A stretch of 64,000 nucleotides of DNA from an uncultured Gammaproteobacteria bacterium (lineage in GTDB: Bacteria; Pseudomonadota; Gammaproteobacteria; Pseudomonadales; Litorivicinaceae). Location: assembly GCA_913057215.1 (NCBI GenBank), contig CAJXNQ010000003.1, positions 1-64,000 of the forward strand, read 5' to 3'. Made by a program: the position numbers and the translations under genes. A model generated the notes under the pieces. That model saw only the letters and a list, made by a program, of their open reading frames with translations, was not told where the DNA came from and made no database searches. Below, in pieces: positions 53,873 through 62,789 of the stretch; positions within the stretch are counted from its first letter, which is position 1, and the number at the start of each line of letters is the position of its first letter.

Positions 53873-54784
53873 TCAATCTCGGACTGGCGAGAGACATCGC
53901 TGAAATGCGTCCGACATCGCCAGCAACAGCTCAGCATACAAATGCGCTCCAGGCGCAATGTCTGTGCCCAGAGGATCCAAAGAAACTACCCGCACGTCGG
54001 TTTGATCCGCAATCATCTGGACCAATTTGGATGGAAACTGTGGTTCGGAAAACACACAGGTCACAGACTGTTGATCAATGGTGTCCATCAGCATGCGAAC
54101 CTGTCGAACCCCGGGCTGGCGCTCCGGCGACAACGCCAGTGCGCCGGCATAGTTCAAGCCAAATGCGTGTTCAAAGTATTGATAGCCGTCATGAAAGACC
54201 ACAAAGGGCTCGGATTGAACACCCTGTAGCACACGCATGACGTTGTGCTGGATTTCATTGATCTCTTGGATGGCATGGTCTCGGTTGGCTGCGTAGCGCG
54301 ACGCATTGCTCGGGTCCATCTGACTCAGGGTGTCTGTAACTGCCTGAAGAATCCCCACGGCGTTTTTCGGATCCAGCCACACATGGGGATCGACACTGCC
54401 CTTTGTGCGGCCGACTGCCGGCCTCGCGAAGGAGTAACCACGGGATTTCAGAGGGGTGATCAATGGATTTGACTGCAGTTGTAACTCCCGCGAGGACACC
54501 GCGCGCATCTGGGTCAGGGGGCGTACCAAAAAGGACTCAAGTGACGGTCCGACCCATACAACTAAATCAGCATCCGCCAATCGAGCGGCCTCAGAGGGAC
54601 GCATCGCATACTGATGTGGCGATGCAGCGCCTTCAATCAACAGCTGCGGTTCACCCAAGTCGCGCATGATCATCGAAACCAACGAGTGAACGGGCTTAAT
54701 CGACACCACTACATCAGGGACTGCCCAACCTGAAATCGGCATCAACCAGGCCACTAACCATACGCCAATTCGCTGCCTGCTCAC
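53873..54784 (-). CDS. znuA: Zinc ABC transporter binding protein
   Basis: I favour the GTG at 54784, which begins a signal peptide SRQRIGVWLVAWLMPISGWA; longer forms would start inside the Zur box. Metal-ligand histidines are in PHQYAMRPSEA, DPHVWLDP and VFHDGYQYFE, with an acid at SLDPLG. The His-rich loop of many ZnuA proteins is missing. It captures zinc in the periplasm for ZnuBC. Divergent from znuC, with the Zur box between. Confidence 0.9.
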   Translation of the reverse strand: MSRQRIGVWLVAWLMPISGWAVPDVVVSIKPVHSLVSMIMRDLGEPQLLIEGAASPHQYAMRPSEAARLADADLVVWVGPSLESFLVRPLTQMRAVSSRELQLQSNPLITPLKSRGYSFARPAVGRTKGSVDPHVWLDPKNAVGILQAVTDTLSQMDPSNASRYAANRDHAIQEINEIQHNVMRVLQGVQSEPFVVFHDGYQYFEHAFGLNYAGALALSPERQPGVRQVRMLMDTIDQQSVTCVFSEPQFPSKLVQMIADQTDVRVVSLDPLGTDIAPGAHLYAELLLAMSDAFQRCLSPVRD

Positions 54785-54817
54785 ATCAAGCGCCCTTTTC
54801 CCCTGAAAACCAAGCGC

Positions 54818-54830
54818 GTTATGATATAAC
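54818..54830. promoter_or_regulatory. Zur box between znuA and znuC
   Basis: GTTATGATATAAC, inside TGCAATGTTATATCATAAC on the minus strand, matches the core of the gammaproteobacterial Zur palindrome. It lies 34 bases before znuA and 30 before znuC, so zinc-loaded Zur could shut both. Confidence 0.8.
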
Positions 54831-54859
54831 ATTGCAACTAAAGATTCGACGGAAAACCC

Positions 54860-55621
54860 ATGCAGCCCACACCGCTGGTCACACTCAATCAAGCCGGAAT
54901 TCAGGTTTCGGGGAAATGGCTTGTCAAAGATGTTTCATTTTCAGTGGCCCCTGGTGAAATCGTCACCTTGATTGGCCCAAACGGCTCTGGCAAGTCGACG
55001 ACTGCGAAATTAGCGCTCGGTATCCTCAAACCAAGTCAAGGCCAAGCAACCCGTCGGGCCGGGCTTCGCGTGGCGTACGTCCCTCAGCAACTCGCCATCG
55101 ACTGGACCCTGCCACTGAATGTCAGTCAGTTTTTACAACTCACAGGCGCCTTGAGTCGCGAAGAAATCCACGATGCGGTTGATGCCTGCGGTCTTCAGAG
55201 TCCGCTCGATGCGGAGGTTCGCACACTGTCTGGTGGCGAGTTTCAACGGGTCTTACTGGCACGTGCCATCGCCAAACAGCCCGAACTCTTGGTCTTGGAT
55301 GAGCCGGTTCAGGGAGTTGATTTTGCAGGCGAAAACGCGCTGTATCAGCTGATCTCAGAGATTCGGGACGCACTGAATTGCGGCATTTTATTAATTTCAC
55401 ATGATCTGCATGTGGTCATGGCGCAGACCGATCGCGTTCTGTGTTTAAACGGCCATGTCTGTTGTTCGGGCACACCGACGGCTGTTGCAGCCAGTGAAGA
55501 ATTTCAAACGCTGTTCGGCCTTCGTGCAGAGAATCAACTCGCGGTCTATACCCACCATCACGATCATGAACATGCATCGACAGGTGCAATTCAGCCCTGC
55601 GAGGATCACCATGTGGGATGA
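54860..55621 (+). CDS. znuC: Zinc ABC transporter ATPase
   Basis: The 253-residue ATPase has Walker A GPNGSGKST, the signature LSGGEFQRVLLARA, Walker B LLVLDEPVQGVD and the switch His (LISHDLHVV). The C-terminal tail is His-rich (YTHHHDHEHAS), common in zinc ABC ATPases. It overlaps znuB by 11 bases. It powers zinc uptake with ZnuA and ZnuB. Confidence 0.95.
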   Translation: MQPTPLVTLNQAGIQVSGKWLVKDVSFSVAPGEIVTLIGPNGSGKSTTAKLALGILKPSQGQATRRAGLRVAYVPQQLAIDWTLPLNVSQFLQLTGALSREEIHDAVDACGLQSPLDAEVRTLSGGEFQRVLLARAIAKQPELLVLDEPVQGVDFAGENALYQLISEIRDALNCGILLISHDLHVVMAQTDRVLCLNGHVCCSGTPTAVAASEEFQTLFGLRAENQLAVYTHHHDHEHASTGAIQPCEDHHVG

Positions 55622-56435
55622 TTTTTTGATTCGAGCCCTGTTTGCAGGACTCGGTGTTGCACTGATTGCAGGGCCTTTAGGCTGTTTCGTCATTTGGCGT
55701 CGGCTGGCGTATTTTGGCGACACCTTGTCGCACGGTGCACTGCTCGGTGTGGCACTTGCTTTGTTATTTGAAGTCCACGTCACCGCCGCGGTCTTTGTGT
55801 TGTCTGCGCTGATCGCATTGAGTCTGTTGTGGCTTCAACGACACGCCAGTATCTCCAGTGATGCGCTTTTGGGTTTACTGTCTCACTCAGCACTCGCAAT
55901 TGGCTTGGTAGTCTTGGCATTTATGACATGGGTCCGTGTCGATCTGTTGGGATTACTGTTTGGAGACATTCTTGCCGTGTCCTGGCTTGATGTTGGCCTG
56001 ATTTGGTTTGGCGCACTCGCCGCACTTGGATTTCTCGGGATCATGTGGACGTCGCTCTTTGCCAGTACCGTCAACCGAGAACTGGCTGAAGCCGAGGGAT
56101 TGAAGCCAGAACGCGCTGAGCTTCTGTTGATGCTCTTACTCGCCGCCATCATTGCCGTCGCCATCAAAATTGTCGGGGTGTTGCTGATTACGTCTCTATT
56201 GATCATCCCAGCCGCTGCGGCCCGCCGGTTCGCACCGGGCCCGGTTTGGATGGCGGGTTTGGCGTCTGGGCTTGGCATGTTGGCAGTCACAGGCGGGCTA
56301 CTTGGATCCATGACATACGACACGCCAACCGGCCCATCCATCGTGGTCATGGCCTTGATACTCTTCCTCGTCTCACTGACACCCATCGCCTCCCGAATCC
56401 AACACCGGATCCGTCATGCCAAGATCGCTGACTAA
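55611..56435 (+). CDS. znuB: Zinc ABC transporter permease
   Basis: The ATG at 55611 begins MWDDFLIRALFAGLGVALIAG. About eight hydrophobic segments make up the 274-residue ABC-3 permease, with RLAYFGDTLSHGALLGVAL and EAEGLKPERAELLLMLLLA as the ATPase-contact motif. It overlaps znuC and zur, so znuCB-zur is one unit. Confidence 0.94.
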   Translation: MWDDFLIRALFAGLGVALIAGPLGCFVIWRRLAYFGDTLSHGALLGVALALLFEVHVTAAVFVLSALIALSLLWLQRHASISSDALLGLLSHSALAIGLVVLAFMTWVRVDLLGLLFGDILAVSWLDVGLIWFGALAALGFLGIMWTSLFASTVNRELAEAEGLKPERAELLLMLLLAAIIAVAIKIVGVLLITSLLIIPAAAARRFAPGPVWMAGLASGLGMLAVTGGLLGSMTYDTPTGPSIVVMALILFLVSLTPIASRIQHRIRHAKIAD

Positions 56436-56814
56436 AAATCAACAGTTGGTGCTTGATGTATTGATGCGCGAGCGTGTGCCTATGAGTGCATATACGATTT
56501 TAGAGCACCTGCGGGAAGCCGGGTTGAAAGCGCCGCCTCAAGTCTACCGTGCTCTCACCGCACTGTGTGAACAGGGCCGAGTGCATAAACTGGCGAGCCT
56601 CAACCGATTTGTCGCATGCCAGCATCCGGGCTGCTCACCACAAACAGTGCATGCCTTTGCGATTTGTGATGCGTGCGAACGGGTCTCCGAAATTCAAAAC
56701 GATGCGTTAGTCCGCTGCCTCAATACCATCTCAGCGGATGCACGTCTTGAGGCCACGCAATCGACCGTTGAAATCCACGGTCGCTGCGCGCGCTGTCAAG
56801 ATGCTCCGTCTTGA
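56416..56814 (+). CDS. zur: Zinc uptake regulator Zur (Fur family)
   Basis: The 132-residue Fur-family protein has the winged helix LTKNQQLVLDVLMRE...PPQVYRALTALCEQG and cysteine pairs in VACQHPGC, ICDAC and RCARC, which form structural and regulatory zinc sites. Its place after znuCB fixes the identity. It represses zinc uptake when zinc is enough. It overlaps the convergent small membrane gene by 19 bases. Confidence 0.92.
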   Translation: MPRSLTKNQQLVLDVLMRERVPMSAYTILEHLREAGLKAPPQVYRALTALCEQGRVHKLASLNRFVACQHPGCSPQTVHAFAICDACERVSEIQNDALVRCLNTISADARLEATQSTVEIHGRCARCQDAPS

Positions 56815-57074: not shown

Positions 57075-57326
57075 CTAATGACTCGATTGTTCAGGCGCGT
57101 GGCCATTGATTTTGCGAACGATCCACAGTGTGATCTTCGGGGCGATGGGCAAGGCTAAAAAAGCAGCCACTGACGCGACCGGCCACGCAAAGATAAACGC
57201 ACGCGCCCACCGGTAGAGAAAATCTTCGGTGAATCCAAGATTCATCCACGTGACAAAGCCGGTCATGATGGTCGCCATGATACACGCCATGACAATTGGC
57301 CCAATGAATTTCGCAGATACGTGCAT
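57075..57326 (-). CDS. DUF2798-family membrane protein
   Basis: The 83-residue product from the ATG at 57326 (GAGGGAG upstream) has SAKFIGPIVMACIMATIMTGFVTW and WARAFIFAWPVASVAAFLALPIAP, the two-span DUF2798 pattern. No function is known for the family. It is divergent from a DUF4177-like gene; the region between holds a weak half-match to an FNR box. Confidence 0.85.
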   Translation of the reverse strand: MHVSAKFIGPIVMACIMATIMTGFVTWMNLGFTEDFLYRWARAFIFAWPVASVAAFLALPIAPKITLWIVRKINGHAPEQSSH

Positions 57327-57499
57327 CGACTCCCTCCTCTCAATGTTTCGGCATCCTGACACAACGTCGGCCGAATGCATGCGATCTAGATCAAGTCACG
57401 GCAAGCCAACGCTTTTTTCATCAGATGAGTCCGCCGATTGTATGTTTAATTGATGAACGATAGGATCAGGCCTCAGTTCACCAGCGCAAACAGGTCACT

Positions 57500-57676
57500 A
57501 TGGACACCTACGAATTCCGTCAATTGTTTTTAATGAAAAACAGCCCCGATGAACTCAATCCGATCCAGCGGGTCATGGACGAAATCAATGAAATGGGCAG
57601 CAACGGATGGCAACTGACCGCCATGTCTGAGAGTAAAAAGCGGGTTATGATCATGTTTCAAAGAAAGAAACAATAA
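57500..57676 (+). CDS. Small DUF4177-like protein
   Basis: This 58-residue frame has TYEFRQLFLMK at the start and INEMGSNGWQLTAMSES in the middle, the beta-strand plus GWxL pattern of DUF4177. The C-terminus is basic. It begins at an ATG without a strong ribosome site. It is too short to be called with certainty, but the motif and codon pattern look real. Confidence 0.65.
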   Translation: MDTYEFRQLFLMKNSPDELNPIQRVMDEINEMGSNGWQLTAMSESKKRVMIMFQRKKQ

Positions 57677-57699
57677 CTCCCCGGACAGGATCCGGGGAG
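57677..57699 (-). terminator. Terminator hairpin after the coiled-coil gene
   Basis: CTCCCCGGA / TCCGGGGAG forms a 9-bp stem with a 5-base loop. On the minus strand it is followed by TTATTGTTTCTTTC, a moderate T-rich tail. It should end the DUF1538-PII operon; on the plus strand it directly follows the DUF4177-like stop. Confidence 0.7.
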
Positions 57700-57709
57700 C
57701 AATCTGCCG

Positions 57710-58459
57710 TTAGAGCTTGATCAGTAGATCCGCAGCACGCTTCTGGTTCGCCACCACGCGTTCACGGTCGGCCTGGATCCGCTCACGACGACTGGCGATG
57801 TCATCACCGAGCTCCAAAATGCCCTTGGTATCTGCCTCAACACGGCGTACCACATCTTCTGCTTGCTGCTCTGCGATGTGAGCCCGCTCAAGCAATTTCT
57901 GCAACCGCTCTGTGTTCGATGCCACGCCCTGAGAGTTCGAGTTGGGTGTCGCTTCGCTCATCTGTTTGGCGATTTTTCCCTCAGCCCACTCAGCGTTCTC
58001 GGCAATCATGTCATCACCCATATCAACGACTTTTTCGTTGGCTTCAGCGATCTTGGTATTGATGGTTTGCAAGAGCACGTTGACTTCGATCATCCGTCCC
58101 GCGATATCACGGAGGGTGTCGTTCAAGTCTGAGCGATTCTCGAGTTGCTCAATCCGAGTTTGGTTCAGCATGCGTGTTTTGAAATTGGCTTCGACCTCAG
58201 AGCTCGGTTCGAGCGCATCAAGCATCGCCATGCGACAACGGTACAAATCATCGACGTTATCAATCGCGATTGCCCGGTTACCCAAAAACGCCGATGTATA
58301 GTTTCGTTGCAACAGCGCTTTGTTCTCTTCGATGTCTGCCAAAAGCAGCATGAGTTCGGCATAGGTGGTTGAGACTTCTGCATCCAGTTCAAAAATACGG
58401 CGCTGGTTTTTGCGGATATTTGTCTTGTTTTCGGTTACTAATTCGGTTGGATTTGCCAT
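57710..58459 (-). CDS. Coiled-coil protein of the DUF1538-PII operon
   Basis: The ATG at 58459 follows AGGTGACACC. The 249-residue soluble protein is almost wholly helical, with heptad-like stretches at about 10-50 (ENKTNIRKNQRRIFELDAEV), 95-150 and 180-245 (ERAHIAEQQAEDVVRRVEAD). It has no signal peptide or membrane span. I recognise no family. As last gene of the operon it may be a scaffold or cytoplasmic partner of the membrane protein or PII-like proteins. This is an inference from position. Confidence 0.75.
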   Translation of the reverse strand: MANPTELVTENKTNIRKNQRRIFELDAEVSTTYAELMLLLADIEENKALLQRNYTSAFLGNRAIAIDNVDDLYRCRMAMLDALEPSSEVEANFKTRMLNQTRIEQLENRSDLNDTLRDIAGRMIEVNVLLQTINTKIAEANEKVVDMGDDMIAENAEWAEGKIAKQMSEATPNSNSQGVASNTERLQKLLERAHIAEQQAEDVVRRVEADTKGILELGDDIASRRERIQADRERVVANQKRAADLLIKL

Positions 58460-58474
58460 GGTGTCACCTGTCAA

Positions 58475-58861
58475 TCAATCTGTAATTTCTTCGAACTCTG
58501 TTGTGTCGAGTTCAGGGAGCGTATGTGCTGTCGAACGCATTAACTTATTCATGTAGATGATGCCTTTATTCGGCTCAGCCATATCGCAGAACCGATAAAT
58601 AAAATCGAACACGTTTTCGGCTTGATCGGCCGTGACCACCACATGAAATTGCTCGACGTCAAAAGAACCCGAGACGCCTGCAACGGTTTTTTTGCCGATG
58701 GGATTCCCGGCGACGTTGTGGAAATAGACCTCATTGATTCCACGCTTCATCAACTCGGGAATCAAGGTTTCACCACCTCCGTCATACAGAATTCCAGAAA
58801 TCAACCAGGTGTAATCGAGATAGCTCACGCGCGGATCGGTTTTAACGACTGGAAACGACAT
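58475..58861 (-). CDS. PII-like signalling protein (second)
   Basis: The 128-residue protein from the ATG at 58861 (a GTG three codons earlier is possible) has a PII-like ferredoxin fold: LDYTWLISGILYDGGGETLIPELMKRG, then EVYFHNVAGNPIGKKTVAG as the T-loop region and VVVTADQAENVFDFIYRFCDM. It differs from classical GlnB and lacks the uridylylated Tyr context. It overlaps neither neighbour strongly but lies 1 base after the first PII-like gene. The ligand is unknown. Confidence 0.78.
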   Translation of the reverse strand: MSFPVVKTDPRVSYLDYTWLISGILYDGGGETLIPELMKRGINEVYFHNVAGNPIGKKTVAGVSGSFDVEQFHVVVTADQAENVFDFIYRFCDMAEPNKGIIYMNKLMRSTAHTLPELDTTEFEEITD

Positions 58862-58862
58862 A

Positions 58863-59222
58863 TCAAGCACTCGCGTATTTGGATAGGATCGAAGGTGGGA
58901 CGTAGGTCGCTGCTTGCATCAAGGGCGTTGCATACATGAATCCCATCCCGGGCGTGTCGAGCTTACCGGCTAAGAATACCCGCTCAAACACACGGTCAAC
59001 CTCGTCACTCGAAACCATGACGTTGACGACGTCCCGCTCGGCATCGACAGCCACACCCAAGGCACCAAGACGCTCTCGGATTCCGACGCCCATCGCGGCG
59101 TGCACAGTCGATCCCTGAATACCGACCTCAAGCAAAGCTTCTGTAATCACTTCACCATAGCCATGCTGGACGACTGCAGTGATCAGGGTCGCATCTGTCA
59201 GTGTCGTAAATGAACGTTTCAT
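58863..59222 (-). CDS. PII-like signalling protein (first)
   Basis: The 119-residue protein has TLITAVVQHGYGEVITEALLEVG in the first beta-alpha unit, a shortened loop HAAMGVGIRERLGALGV, and VVNVMVSSDEVDRVFERVFLAGKLDTPGMGFMYATPL, the PII C-terminal core. AAGGAG and an ATGA overlap with the DUF1538 gene fix the start. PII proteins commonly gate membrane transporters (GlnK-AmtB, SbtB-SbtA), so it probably binds the DUF1538 protein. No uridylylation Tyr is evident. Confidence 0.85.
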   Translation of the reverse strand: MKRSFTTLTDATLITAVVQHGYGEVITEALLEVGIQGSTVHAAMGVGIRERLGALGVAVDAERDVVNVMVSSDEVDRVFERVFLAGKLDTPGMGFMYATPLMQAATYVPPSILSKYASA

Positions 59223-61009
59223 GCCATTTCTCCTTCACGAGCGAGCTCACGTGCGATGCGGCGTTCCTCTCGCTTTACTTTAAATTGAACATAGATACCA
59301 AGTGTCAACACAGCCACGATTGGACAAATTGAGGCGGCTGCTAAAATCCCGAAGCCCTCTGTAGACCCCAAAGCATTACCGAAGCCAAGACCCATCGCCA
59401 GAACCAGTGGCACCGTCACAGGACCTGTGGTGACACCCGCTGAATCCCAGCCGACGTTGACGAATTCCTCAGTCGATAAAAGCGTTAAAATCAAACCGAT
59501 GGTGTAACCGGGAATCAGGATGTACATGATGTGGAAATCATAAATCAGCTTGAGAACCCCAAGCATGATGCCGGTCGCAACCCCAAAGGCCACCGCGCCC
59601 ATCAGCATCGACTTCTTAAACGCACCATTGGTGAGATTCTGTACGGTCATACCGAGTGCATTCAACGCAGGCTCAGCCAAGGTTGCTGACAAGCCCAACA
59701 CCCACGCAAAGAGCGCGGCAATCCCAACACCGACGGACACGCTGTAGAGCGGACTGGCTGTGATGGCATCGATCGATGTAAAGGCGCCGGCAATCAGGCC
59801 ACCGGACTGATCACCAAGCTTTGCCAATCCATAGGTCAAGCCGATGTTGAAAATACACATACCAACCACGGCTAAAATGATCCCGTAGTAAGTGATGAAT
59901 GCGTTTTTCAACTTCTCACGCAGGATCACAAACAAGACGATCCCGAGGAAAATCACAAGCGGTACGATTGCACGCACGCCGAGAATGATTTCTGTCCAAG
60001 GTGTTGCTTCATACCACTGTGGCTGAGCGGCAGCGAACTGAGCAGCCAGCTTCACTTCAGCGGCCTTGGCAATAATGACCTCAGGCGGAACTGTATAGGC
60101 GGTGTAAAAGCTTAACAGCAACACACCCAGAATCGGGAACACCGAAGCCAGTGTGACGATTCCGAATCCAGACAATGAGGAATCCGCCCCTTTACCGGCT
60201 GCTGATGCCACGCCGATCCCGAGCGCAAGGACCAAGGGAACTGTCACAGGACCTGTGGTCACCGCACCGCAATCCCAAGCAAGACCGACAATCTTGTTCA
60301 GCTCAGGATCCATAAAGGCAATGACACTTAAGATAATTGTCGGCGTGAGACTGATAAAAATCAGCGGCTTCAAACTCCAACCCCTCAAGAATCGGACCGT
60401 TCCAAGAACGGCTGCCAATCCAACACCGAGTCCGACCAGCAATACGGTTGCACCGGAGCGGTCATTGAGGAGTGTAAATAAATACGGGGCTTTTTCTGGA
60501 TCGACGATGGATCCTGCGACCTGCAATGCACCGATCGCCGGTTCTGCAAAGGTCACACCGATGCCGAGCAAAAATGCAATACAAAGTACACCCGCGAGTG
60601 GCAGTTTGCGTGGCAGCGTGTTACCAATGATCTCACCGAAGGGCATCAGACCGAGCTTCAAGCCCTCCATGAACATCATCAAACCGATCATCACGGCAAA
60701 CAAACCACCGGCGATGATACTGGCATCCATCACAGGCGTTTGAAGCACCAGATATTGGAACGCTGCAAGATACAGTGCCAGAGGCACAACGGCGCGCGCC
60801 TGGTCGATAAAGCGCGTGGACAAATAGGGTTGAAGTATTTTGACCACATCACCGCCACCCAATTTCATTTTGGGGACCGGTTGAGGAAACTCGTTTCCGT
60901 GCCGATCGAAGAGGGGCTCTGGCATCAGTTCTTGGTATGGAATCTTTTGGCTGTCGATGGACATCGCTTGGATGTAATCACCGAATCGGATGGTATTGCG
61001 TCGCGACAT
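59219..61009 (-). CDS. Tandem DUF1538 membrane protein
   Basis: The 596-residue membrane protein is an internal duplication. Half one has FAEPAIGAL (154-162) and WDCGAVTTGPVTVPLVLALG (245-264); half two has LAEPALNAL (444-452) and WDSAGVTTGPVTVPLVLAMG (521-540). Each half has about six hydrophobic segments, joined by a polar loop around 310-340. A soluble N-terminal ~60 residues precede the first span. DUF1538 proteins are predicted transporters with no proven substrate. The coupled PII-like genes strongly suggest regulated transport. The first gene of a four-gene operon. Confidence 0.88.
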   Translation of the reverse strand: MSRRNTIRFGDYIQAMSIDSQKIPYQELMPEPLFDRHGNEFPQPVPKMKLGGGDVVKILQPYLSTRFIDQARAVVPLALYLAAFQYLVLQTPVMDASIIAGGLFAVMIGLMMFMEGLKLGLMPFGEIIGNTLPRKLPLAGVLCIAFLLGIGVTFAEPAIGALQVAGSIVDPEKAPYLFTLLNDRSGATVLLVGLGVGLAAVLGTVRFLRGWSLKPLIFISLTPTIILSVIAFMDPELNKIVGLAWDCGAVTTGPVTVPLVLALGIGVASAAGKGADSSLSGFGIVTLASVFPILGVLLLSFYTAYTVPPEVIIAKAAEVKLAAQFAAAQPQWYEATPWTEIILGVRAIVPLVIFLGIVLFVILREKLKNAFITYYGIILAVVGMCIFNIGLTYGLAKLGDQSGGLIAGAFTSIDAITASPLYSVSVGVGIAALFAWVLGLSATLAEPALNALGMTVQNLTNGAFKKSMLMGAVAFGVATGIMLGVLKLIYDFHIMYILIPGYTIGLILTLLSTEEFVNVGWDSAGVTTGPVTVPLVLAMGLGFGNALGSTEGFGILAAASICPIVAVLTLGIYVQFKVKREERRIARELAREGEMA

Positions 61010-61193
61010 AAATCAAACCTGTCAAACTATAATTGTTATATCGTCACTCTGTTTAAGTTACAGAATGAAGACAATTTGATTAATAAAGAAACAAATGTAA
61101 AGCCCTGATTTAACGTGCTCCATCAAAACCTACGTGTTTTTGGAAATCCATTTCATTGCCCTGACTCGCCAAAATCATTAGGCTCAGGGTCTT

Positions 61194-62789
61194 TTGAACA
61201 AGTGGCGAGTCGACGTGACACAGAACCCGACACCAAATTACCAAGGCCGTTTTTTTGGCTATTCGGTTGATGTTGACCGCACGGTTTTTCTCATCTCCGC
61301 TGGGGTTGTCCTCAGCTTTGTTGTCTTCACCATTGCCTTTCAAGCGGAAGCACAAGCCACATTTACCGGGCTGAAAACCCTCCTCACTGAACAACTGGGT
61401 TGGTTGTTTTTAGTGGCGGCAAACATCGTCTTAATCACAGCGATCTGTATTGCACTGTCACCCTTGGGACGCGTCAGACTCGGTGGCATTGGTGCCCGAC
61501 CCGCCTACTCCTATACCGCCTGGTTTTCCATGTTATTTGCAGCCGGCATGGGTATCGGTTTGGTCTTCTACGGGGTGGCTGAGCCGCTTGCACATTTCCA
61601 AAGTGCCATGGCAGGACCCTCGCTCTCTGAGGGCGTACGCACCGACTACGCGCCACTTGGTGGCGCATTGCAAGATGCTGATGACGCACGCCGTTTGGGC
61701 ATGGCGGCCACAATATTTCACTGGGCACTCCACCCTTGGGCGATCTACGCCATGATGGCACTTGGATTTGCATTGACCAGTTATAACAATGGATTGCCTT
61801 TGACGGTCCGATCTATTTTTTATCCCATCTTGGGTGATCGGATTTGGGGCTGGCCGGGTCAACTGATCGATATTCTGGCGATTTTTGCCACCCTCTTCGG
61901 GCTTGCGACATCACTGGGATTGGGTGCCTCGCAAACAGCCAGTGGCATCCAATATTTGTTTGGGTTGACCAATTCAATCACGTTACAGTTGATTCTCATT
62001 GCATTTATTACCCTGCTGGCAACTTTATCCGTGGTTTCAGGACTCGACCGCGGGGTCAAACGCCTCTCAGAACTCAATCTTGGACTGGCGACATTGCTGT
62101 TTTTGTTTGTACTGCTCGCAGGCCCAACCTATGTCTTAGTCGATGTTGTTTTTGAATCCCTCACGAGCTATGTGGGTCATTTACCCGCACTCGCCTCACC
62201 CGTGGGCCGAGAAGATCGCGCGTTTAGCGTCGAATGGACAGCCTTTTACCTGGCCTGGTGGGTATCTTGGTCGCCTTTTGTTGGGATGTTTATTGCACGG
62301 GTTTCCATTGGACGCACCGTCCGCGAATTCATCGCCTGTGTCCTGATCATTCCATCGATTGGCTGCATTCTCTGGATGAGCGTCTTTGGCGGCAGTGCCA
62401 TCGTGCTGAATGAACTCACAGGTGACATTGCCCGCGCCGAATTACCCCTGAAACTGTTTGTCATGCTCAATCAACTGCCGCTGGCCGAGCTGACATCCAT
62501 CATTGCCATGCTGTTGGCTGTGATTTTCTTTGTAACGTCTTCAGACAGCGGATCCATGGTCATCGACGGTATCGCCTCCGGTGGTGTAACCAACACCCCC
62601 ATCACGCAACGGATTTTTTGGTGCACCTTGGGTGGTTCAGTCGCAGCCGCACTGGTTCTCGGTGGTGGTCTGGTGGCGCTCCAAGCCATGGCAATCTCCA
62701 CAGGCTTACCCTTTGCGATCGTTCTTCTGATTGGCACAGCTGCAACCGTCAATAGCCTCCGCCAGGAGTGCCTCAAACCACATGAGTGA
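61194..62789 (+). CDS. BCCT-family transporter
   Basis: The 531-residue protein has about 12 hydrophobic segments and the betaine/choline/carnitine transporter signatures SMLFAAGMGIGLVFYGVAEPL and FYLAWWVSWSPFVGMFIARVS. It probably takes up glycine betaine or a similar quaternary amine with sodium or protons. The frame seems to start at a TTG at 61194; a GTG at 61215 is an option. It overlaps a small membrane gene downstream by 8 bases. Divergent from the DUF1538 operon across 184 bases. Confidence 0.9.
   Translation: MNKWRVDVTQNPTPNYQGRFFGYSVDVDRTVFLISAGVVLSFVVFTIAFQAEAQATFTGLKTLLTEQLGWLFLVAANIVLITAICIALSPLGRVRLGGIGARPAYSYTAWFSMLFAAGMGIGLVFYGVAEPLAHFQSAMAGPSLSEGVRTDYAPLGGALQDADDARRLGMAATIFHWALHPWAIYAMMALGFALTSYNNGLPLTVRSIFYPILGDRIWGWPGQLIDILAIFATLFGLATSLGLGASQTASGIQYLFGLTNSITLQLILIAFITLLATLSVVSGLDRGVKRLSELNLGLATLLFLFVLLAGPTYVLVDVVFESLTSYVGHLPALASPVGREDRAFSVEWTAFYLAWWVSWSPFVGMFIARVSIGRTVREFIACVLIIPSIGCILWMSVFGGSAIVLNELTGDIARAELPLKLFVMLNQLPLAELTSIIAMLLAVIFFVTSSDSGSMVIDGIASGGVTNTPITQRIFWCTLGGSVAAALVLGGGLVALQAMAISTGLPFAIVLLIGTAATVNSLRQECLKPHE

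Follow-up and report, generated by a model that had tools for sequence, protein, structure and literature searches.

A fused DUF1538 membrane protein encoded with two PII-like proteins in marine bacteria, a putative PII-gated Na+/H+ antiporter

Why would a bacterium encode one membrane transporter together with two different PII-like proteins? The question is raised by a 64,000-nucleotide stretch of DNA from an uncultured gammaproteobacterium of the family Litorivicinaceae (the window; assembly GCA_913057215.1, contig CAJXNQ010000003.1, positions 1 to 64,000), in which four tightly packed minus-strand open reading frames at 61009-57710 encode, in this order, a DUF1538 membrane protein (M), two PII-like proteins (PA and PB) and a fourth protein (CC). 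We consider that M is probably a Na+/H+ antiporter gated by PA and PB as dedicated PII-like subunits. The evidence that carries this reading is a well supported observation, namely that the pairing of DUF1538 with one PII subfamily is near-obligate and occurs in roughly one in three of the Pseudomonadota genomes sampled. The operon is made up as follows (aa, amino acids):

59219-61009, minus strand: M, fused DUF1538 pair, 596 aa, an UmpAB-like putative Na+/H+ antiporter (PF07556 twice; NCBIfam UmpA/UmpB; structure model)
60107-60778, minus strand: first DUF1538 repeat of M, carrying WDCGAVTTGPVTVPLVLA (PF07556 match)
59282-59993 (approximate), minus strand: second DUF1538 repeat of M, carrying WDSAGVTTGPVTVPLVLA (PF07556 match at 59294-59956)
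58863-59222, minus strand: PA, PII-like protein 1, 119 aa (PF00543, above the cut-off)
58475-58861, minus strand: PB, PII-like protein 2, 128 aa (profile-profile match to PA; PII topology in the model; PDB fold matches)
57710-58459, minus strand: CC, low-proline and probably helical, 249 aa, a clade-specific accessory (no family; in 27/27 close loci; single origin)

To measure co-occurrence, we searched 398 Pseudomonadota genomes for DUF1538 and for a linked-PII profile built from DUF1538-linked copies, with matches of E < 1e-20 counted as strong. DUF1538 was present in 126 genomes and a strong profile match in 127, the remainder, with canonical PII, reaching about 1e-4 to 1e-13 at best. Overall, 122 genomes carried both, 4 carried DUF1538 alone (several of these being fragmentary assemblies), 5 carried the linked PII alone and 267 carried neither (Fisher p = 1.6e-90, with related genomes not independent; the two genome sets were tallied by hand from tables). 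Because the profile was made from linked copies, direct adjacency is the better test. Among 99 distinct DUF1538 loci with room downstream, 95 had a PII gene immediately downstream in the same orientation and one (L096) had it directly upstream, so that 96/99 were adjacent. PII also stands beside DUF1538 in the public annotation of five named plasmid records, clostridial and alphaproteobacterial, and it is from plasmid records that the evidence outside Pseudomonadota comes. An earlier first-pass annotation, made from the sequence alone, had proposed a transporter with dedicated PII-like partners and had named PII genes lying mostly apart from DUF1538 as the result that would speak against it; these counts point the other way, and near-obligate co-occurrence and adjacency uphold the proposal.

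M matches PF07556 (DUF1538) in two stretches at 1.2e-98, with 329 bits against a curated cut-off of 22.6, and each repeat carries its motif exactly, in agreement with the earlier description of a tandemly duplicated membrane protein with two near-identical motifs. Against NCBIfam, M scores 209 bits with UmpA (NF041627) and 163 bits with UmpB (NF041628), its first half aligning best to UmpA and its second half to UmpB, fused rather than separate. The first-pass annotation had left the substrate of the transporter unnamed, which is out of date: DUF1538 pairs are known as the UmpAB Na+(Li+,K+)/H+ antiporter, demonstrated experimentally for UmpA and UmpB of Halomonas zhaodongensis, where antiporter-deficient Escherichia coli was rescued by umpA and umpB together, by neither gene singly, and where the two proteins co-immunoprecipitated (PMC5484666). 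The 4.2-kb clone used in that work contains only ORF1-4 (a citrate-transporter fragment, an efflux permease, umpA and umpB), and a PII partner goes unmentioned (PMC5484666). Since antiport was seen without a PII gene, PII would be a regulator that is dispensable for transport. M shares with UmpAB two homologous DUF1538 halves, the first UmpA-like and the second UmpB-like, but differs in that its halves are fused in one protein that scores under the equivalog cut-offs, and in that the UmpAB clone has no PII gene.

By analogy with UmpAB, M would exchange Na+ for H+. D522 does not vary across 22 fused homologues, and E156, E446 and D246 hardly vary, which makes these residues candidate ion or proton sites. 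A structure model of M (predicted template-modelling score 0.77; mean predicted local distance difference test (pLDDT) score 76.6), built from an alignment of 22 sequences that left out three plasmid rows, has two helical halves. A PDB fold search with this model returned nothing at E <= 0.001 (best E = 0.02, template-modelling score about 0.13), and a sequence-profile search for a solved relative of M found nothing. We do not claim a new fold, since the model was built on only 22 sequences.

The first-pass annotation had also recognized two different PII-like proteins, and both held up, by different routes. PA exceeds the cut-off of the P-II family (PF00543; 28.6 bits versus a cut-off of 25, E 1.9e-6). 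PB has no match in Pfam, the P-II cut-off included, but has a PII-like fold that Pfam misses. Profile-profile comparison with hhalign aligned PB to PA with 24% identity, a probability of 95% and E = 3e-8, and the PII profile directly picks up the PB counterparts of other lineages. The PB model, which is moderately confident (mean pLDDT 71.7, with 80-92 in the core), has the strand-helix-strand-strand-helix-strand order of PII, and in a fold search all 50 PDB matches listed were PII-family structures, led by GlnK (E = 2.7e-5).

Canonical PII proteins bind the ATP phosphates through K90, R101 and R103, use residues that include Q39 and K58 for 2-oxoglutarate, and are uridylylated on Y51. None of K90, R101, R103 and Y51 is present in PA or in any of the 27 DUF1538-linked PIIs that were compared, which sets these proteins apart from canonical GlnB/GlnK, and PA has R in place of Q39. 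Among the 27, T29 is retained throughout and G37 almost throughout, and residue 58 is often still basic. Judged by these residues, the DUF1538-linked PIIs have kept the fold and are changed at the effector site; as the canonical ATP-phosphate and uridylylation residues are missing, a classical nitrogen-status signal is unlikely.

DUF1538 and PII genes are combined in several ways. Separate umpA-umpB-PII genes account for 41/99 loci, a long fused DUF1538 gene followed by PA and PB is found in several families, and Clostridia have a fused DUF1538 gene with a 222-aa tandem PII; the window form is fused DUF1538 with PA, PB and CC. In one genome, a fused DUF1538 gene is directly followed by a gene (L144:4402-5673) whose 424-aa product combines three PII-like domains in one chain, the outer two scoring 1.5e-4 and 5.8e-5 versus a best of 1.3 among 600 shuffled pieces; this product is a possible single-chain PII trimer. 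In other two-PII lineages the gene right after PB encodes a SpoIIE-type phosphatase (L110:5334-6998) or a LEA_2-domain protein (L115, 4178-4723; also L116 and L118), which are candidate alternative partners in the place of CC. Paired, different, adjacent PII genes also occur as NifI1/NifI2, which are thought to work jointly, although their target is an enzyme and not a transporter.

The four-gene form itself is highly conserved. A PB scan of bacterial genomes gathered 27 close loci, from SAR116, Kordiimonadaceae, Planktomarina/Rhodobacteraceae and marine Gammaproteobacteria, and all 27 keep the order and strand of M-PA-PB-CC, so the arrangement is not due to chance. Many of the sources are named as single-amplified-type SAR116 assemblies, the others being metagenome bins and the isolate IMCC1909, and agreement across these argues against an assembly artefact. 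Identity to the closest SAR116 set is about 93-96% for M and PA and about 75-80% for PB and CC. Of 22 genomes compared from the window's genus, the window's own among them, only 5 have DUF1538. The SAR116 copies share 92.6-93.4% identity with M of the window, whereas RecA shares 69% between these genomes, and the M tree intermingles Alpha- and Gammaproteobacteria, with the window in a supported group of 14 of which the other 13 are alphaproteobacterial records; the operon therefore seems to be a unit that moves laterally among marine bacteria. Operon surroundings vary between groups. In SAR116, several copies have mrp/mnh antiporter genes in their vicinity, and a growth-pH model counts DUF1538 as one of its features (PMC13255231), both of which agree with a context of ion and pH homeostasis. 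Two loci of the same genus (L141 and L143) carry a second type of M, 57% identical, with PA, a shortened PB and no CC, and have a CHASE2-cyclase gene nearby; because an oppositely oriented gene lies in between, a cyclic-nucleotide link was set aside.

CC had been proposed as a coiled-coil scaffold. It is retained in all 27 close loci, forms one clade on the tree (support 100/100), is present in 1/398 sampled Pseudomonadota genomes and is missing from every other two-PII lineage examined. CC thus arose once and marks a marine clade spanning Alpha- and Gammaproteobacteria; it is a later, clade-specific accessory and no core part of the system, with a scaffold role unproven. It contains only 3 prolines in 249 aa and is probably all-helical. 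No match of note was found in Pfam, NCBIfam or PDB, nor any known relative, and SMC-like and V-ATPase-like scores were set aside as coiled-coil noise.

How might the parts act together? The UmpA and UmpB halves, separate in many bacteria, are joined in M as a single protein, and PA and PB would form a PII trimer, possibly mixed, that docks at the cytosolic face of M. A bound small molecule would then cause the trimer to lock or unlock the carrier, the effector probably being other than the classical ATP/2-oxoglutarate pair. We infer direct gating, including docking, trimer make-up, direction of control and ligand, and the lock is proposed by analogy with GlnK-AmtB and SbtB-SbtA, in which PII proteins are known to lock transporters (PMC10710835). 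As in GlnK-AmtB, a PII-family gene shares an operon with its transporter and both sides are conserved, but AmtB is unrelated to M and the PII-like proteins here are without the uridylylation tyrosine, K90, R101 and R103. As in SbtB-SbtA, a non-canonical PII-like protein is encoded with a secondary ion transporter, and SbtB structures appear among the PB fold matches; SbtA, however, belongs to another transporter family, there are two PII genes here and the DUF1538-linked PII profile matches SbtB only partly (3e-4).

Several observations weigh against an antiporter gated by PA and PB. M falls below both equivalog cut-offs (490 bits for UmpA NF041627 and 500 bits for UmpB NF041628) and is therefore filed as a DUF1538 protein working like UmpAB, not as UmpAB itself; ten separate umpA genes from other genomes are likewise under the cut-off (337-393 bits). 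Docking is out of reach of homology modelling, since neither the sequence nor the fold searches turned up a solved relative of M, and among the architectures no fusion of DUF1538 with PII was seen. Three of the 99 loci (L068, L103 and L123) have no adjacent PII gene, although the L103 and L123 genomes keep one elsewhere. Finally, a few families have PA relatives without a neighbouring DUF1538 gene (L149, L153, L155 and L161; also L148, L150, L151, L162 and L163).

The first-pass annotation had suggested two PII-like subunits acting as dual or hetero-oligomeric sensors, and the paired arrangement stands, since two-PII sets are also found beyond the window clade and PII domains elsewhere are fused in tandem or in threes; this recurrence suggests that PA and PB work together. 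The hetero-oligomeric part is more tentative. A hetero-PII (PA/PB, tandem or triple) might break three-fold symmetry, fit a pseudo-two-fold antiporter and sense a ligand other than ATP/2-oxoglutarate, an idea we hold to be possible but doubtful. A comparable, minority chance goes to PA and PB forming separate homotrimers, of which one gates M and the other signals to CC or another partner gene. PB is much more variable than PA among relatives (66-80% versus 88-96% identity), is shortened in the two CC-free loci L141 and L143, and is followed by partner genes that vary between lineages, as separate assemblies would allow; but the tandem and triple PII fusions beside DUF1538 elsewhere favour one joint assembly, and CC is absent from many two-PII lineages.

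Less likely, though deserving of weight, is that the PII-like proteins do gate M but the cargo is something else, such as bicarbonate or an organic ion, the Na+/H+ activity of UmpAB then not extending to this divergent clade of fused proteins. M scores well short of the UmpA/UmpB cut-offs, the sole characterised DUF1538 pair was studied via heterologous expression (PMC5484666), and transporters known to be PII-locked carry nutrients. However, the DUF1538 signature with D246/D522 and E156/E446 is common to M and distant fused homologues, and mrp/mnh genes lie near several SAR116 copies of M.

We regard it as improbable that the PII-like proteins never touch M and that the operon merely gives co-expression, with enzymes or transcription as their targets upon Na+ or pH change. 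Several of the DUF1538-free PA relatives lie near argB-like and glutamate-cysteine ligase-like genes, and in another family a linked-type PII lies between malic enzyme-like and CBS-domain-like genes (L158:624-1082 and L159:557-955), where umpAB is without an adjacent PII; all of these gene names were assigned by eye. The argB product, N-acetylglutamate kinase, is a classical PII target. Such neighbours near argB-like genes in some families, or a malic enzyme gene in another, are what this explanation would predict, but the DUF1538-PII pairing is near-obligate in both directions and immediate in 95/99 loci across two phyla, and PA is as conserved as M. That the M-PII neighbourhood is a chance or ancestral association without functional meaning is scarcely credible: three loci do have DUF1538 pairs without an adjacent PII, but the linkage outlasts lateral transfer and altered surroundings and spans two phyla, one family that lost adjacency has kept the PII gene in its genome, and the 122/4/5 co-occurrence and 95/99 adjacency contradict it.

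The remaining features concern the layout of the operon. Its four genes had been described as overlapping or separated by gaps of 1-15 bases, and the open reading frame coordinates bear this out: the PA ATG and the M stop share 4 bases (ATGA), PA and PB are separated by one base (PB ATG at 58861, stop at 58475), and a gap of 15 bases precedes CC (ATG at 58459, end at 57710). A longer reading of CC, from an upstream TTG, is a 254-aa open reading frame, compared with 249 aa for the ATG version. The hairpin reported at the operon end was found at 57700-57676, just outside 57710-61009.

57676-57700, minus strand: terminator-like hairpin directly past CC (11-pair stem, loop of 3, T-rich tail)
61026-61055, minus strand: weak promoter-like site upstream of M (9/12 consensus bases, which is no more than chance expectation)

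Divergent from M, a BCCT-type (betaine/choline) transporter gene occupies 61194-62789 of the window; it was ruled out as a component of the system, as 0/27 close loci carry BCCT. Opposite the operon end lies a 58-aa DUF4177-like open reading frame (57500-57676; below the cut-off), beyond which a DUF2798 membrane protein is encoded at 57075-57380. An ordinary zinc-uptake cluster lies at 53873-56814: a ZnuA-like gene and, divergent from it, genes for an ABC ATPase, an ABC-3 permease and a FUR-family protein.

No text linking DUF1538 or UmpAB with PII was found in the open-licence literature, and the antiporter-PII partnership is apparently undescribed; as the search was confined to open-licence literature and the adjacency can be read from public annotation, priority is not certain. 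Known relatives exist for each part of the partnership, and the control of transporters by PII is itself an established type of system. The best-known role of PII proteins is in sensing nitrogen and carbon. If our reading is true, PII control would extend to cytoplasmic pH and sodium homeostasis, and many proteins annotated as 'P-II family nitrogen regulators' would gain a target, their annotated name being probably misleading. PII control has been reviewed as apparently confined to transporters able to act as trimers (PMC10710835), a rule to which UmpAB, reported to be a heterodimer, would bring an exception or a refinement.

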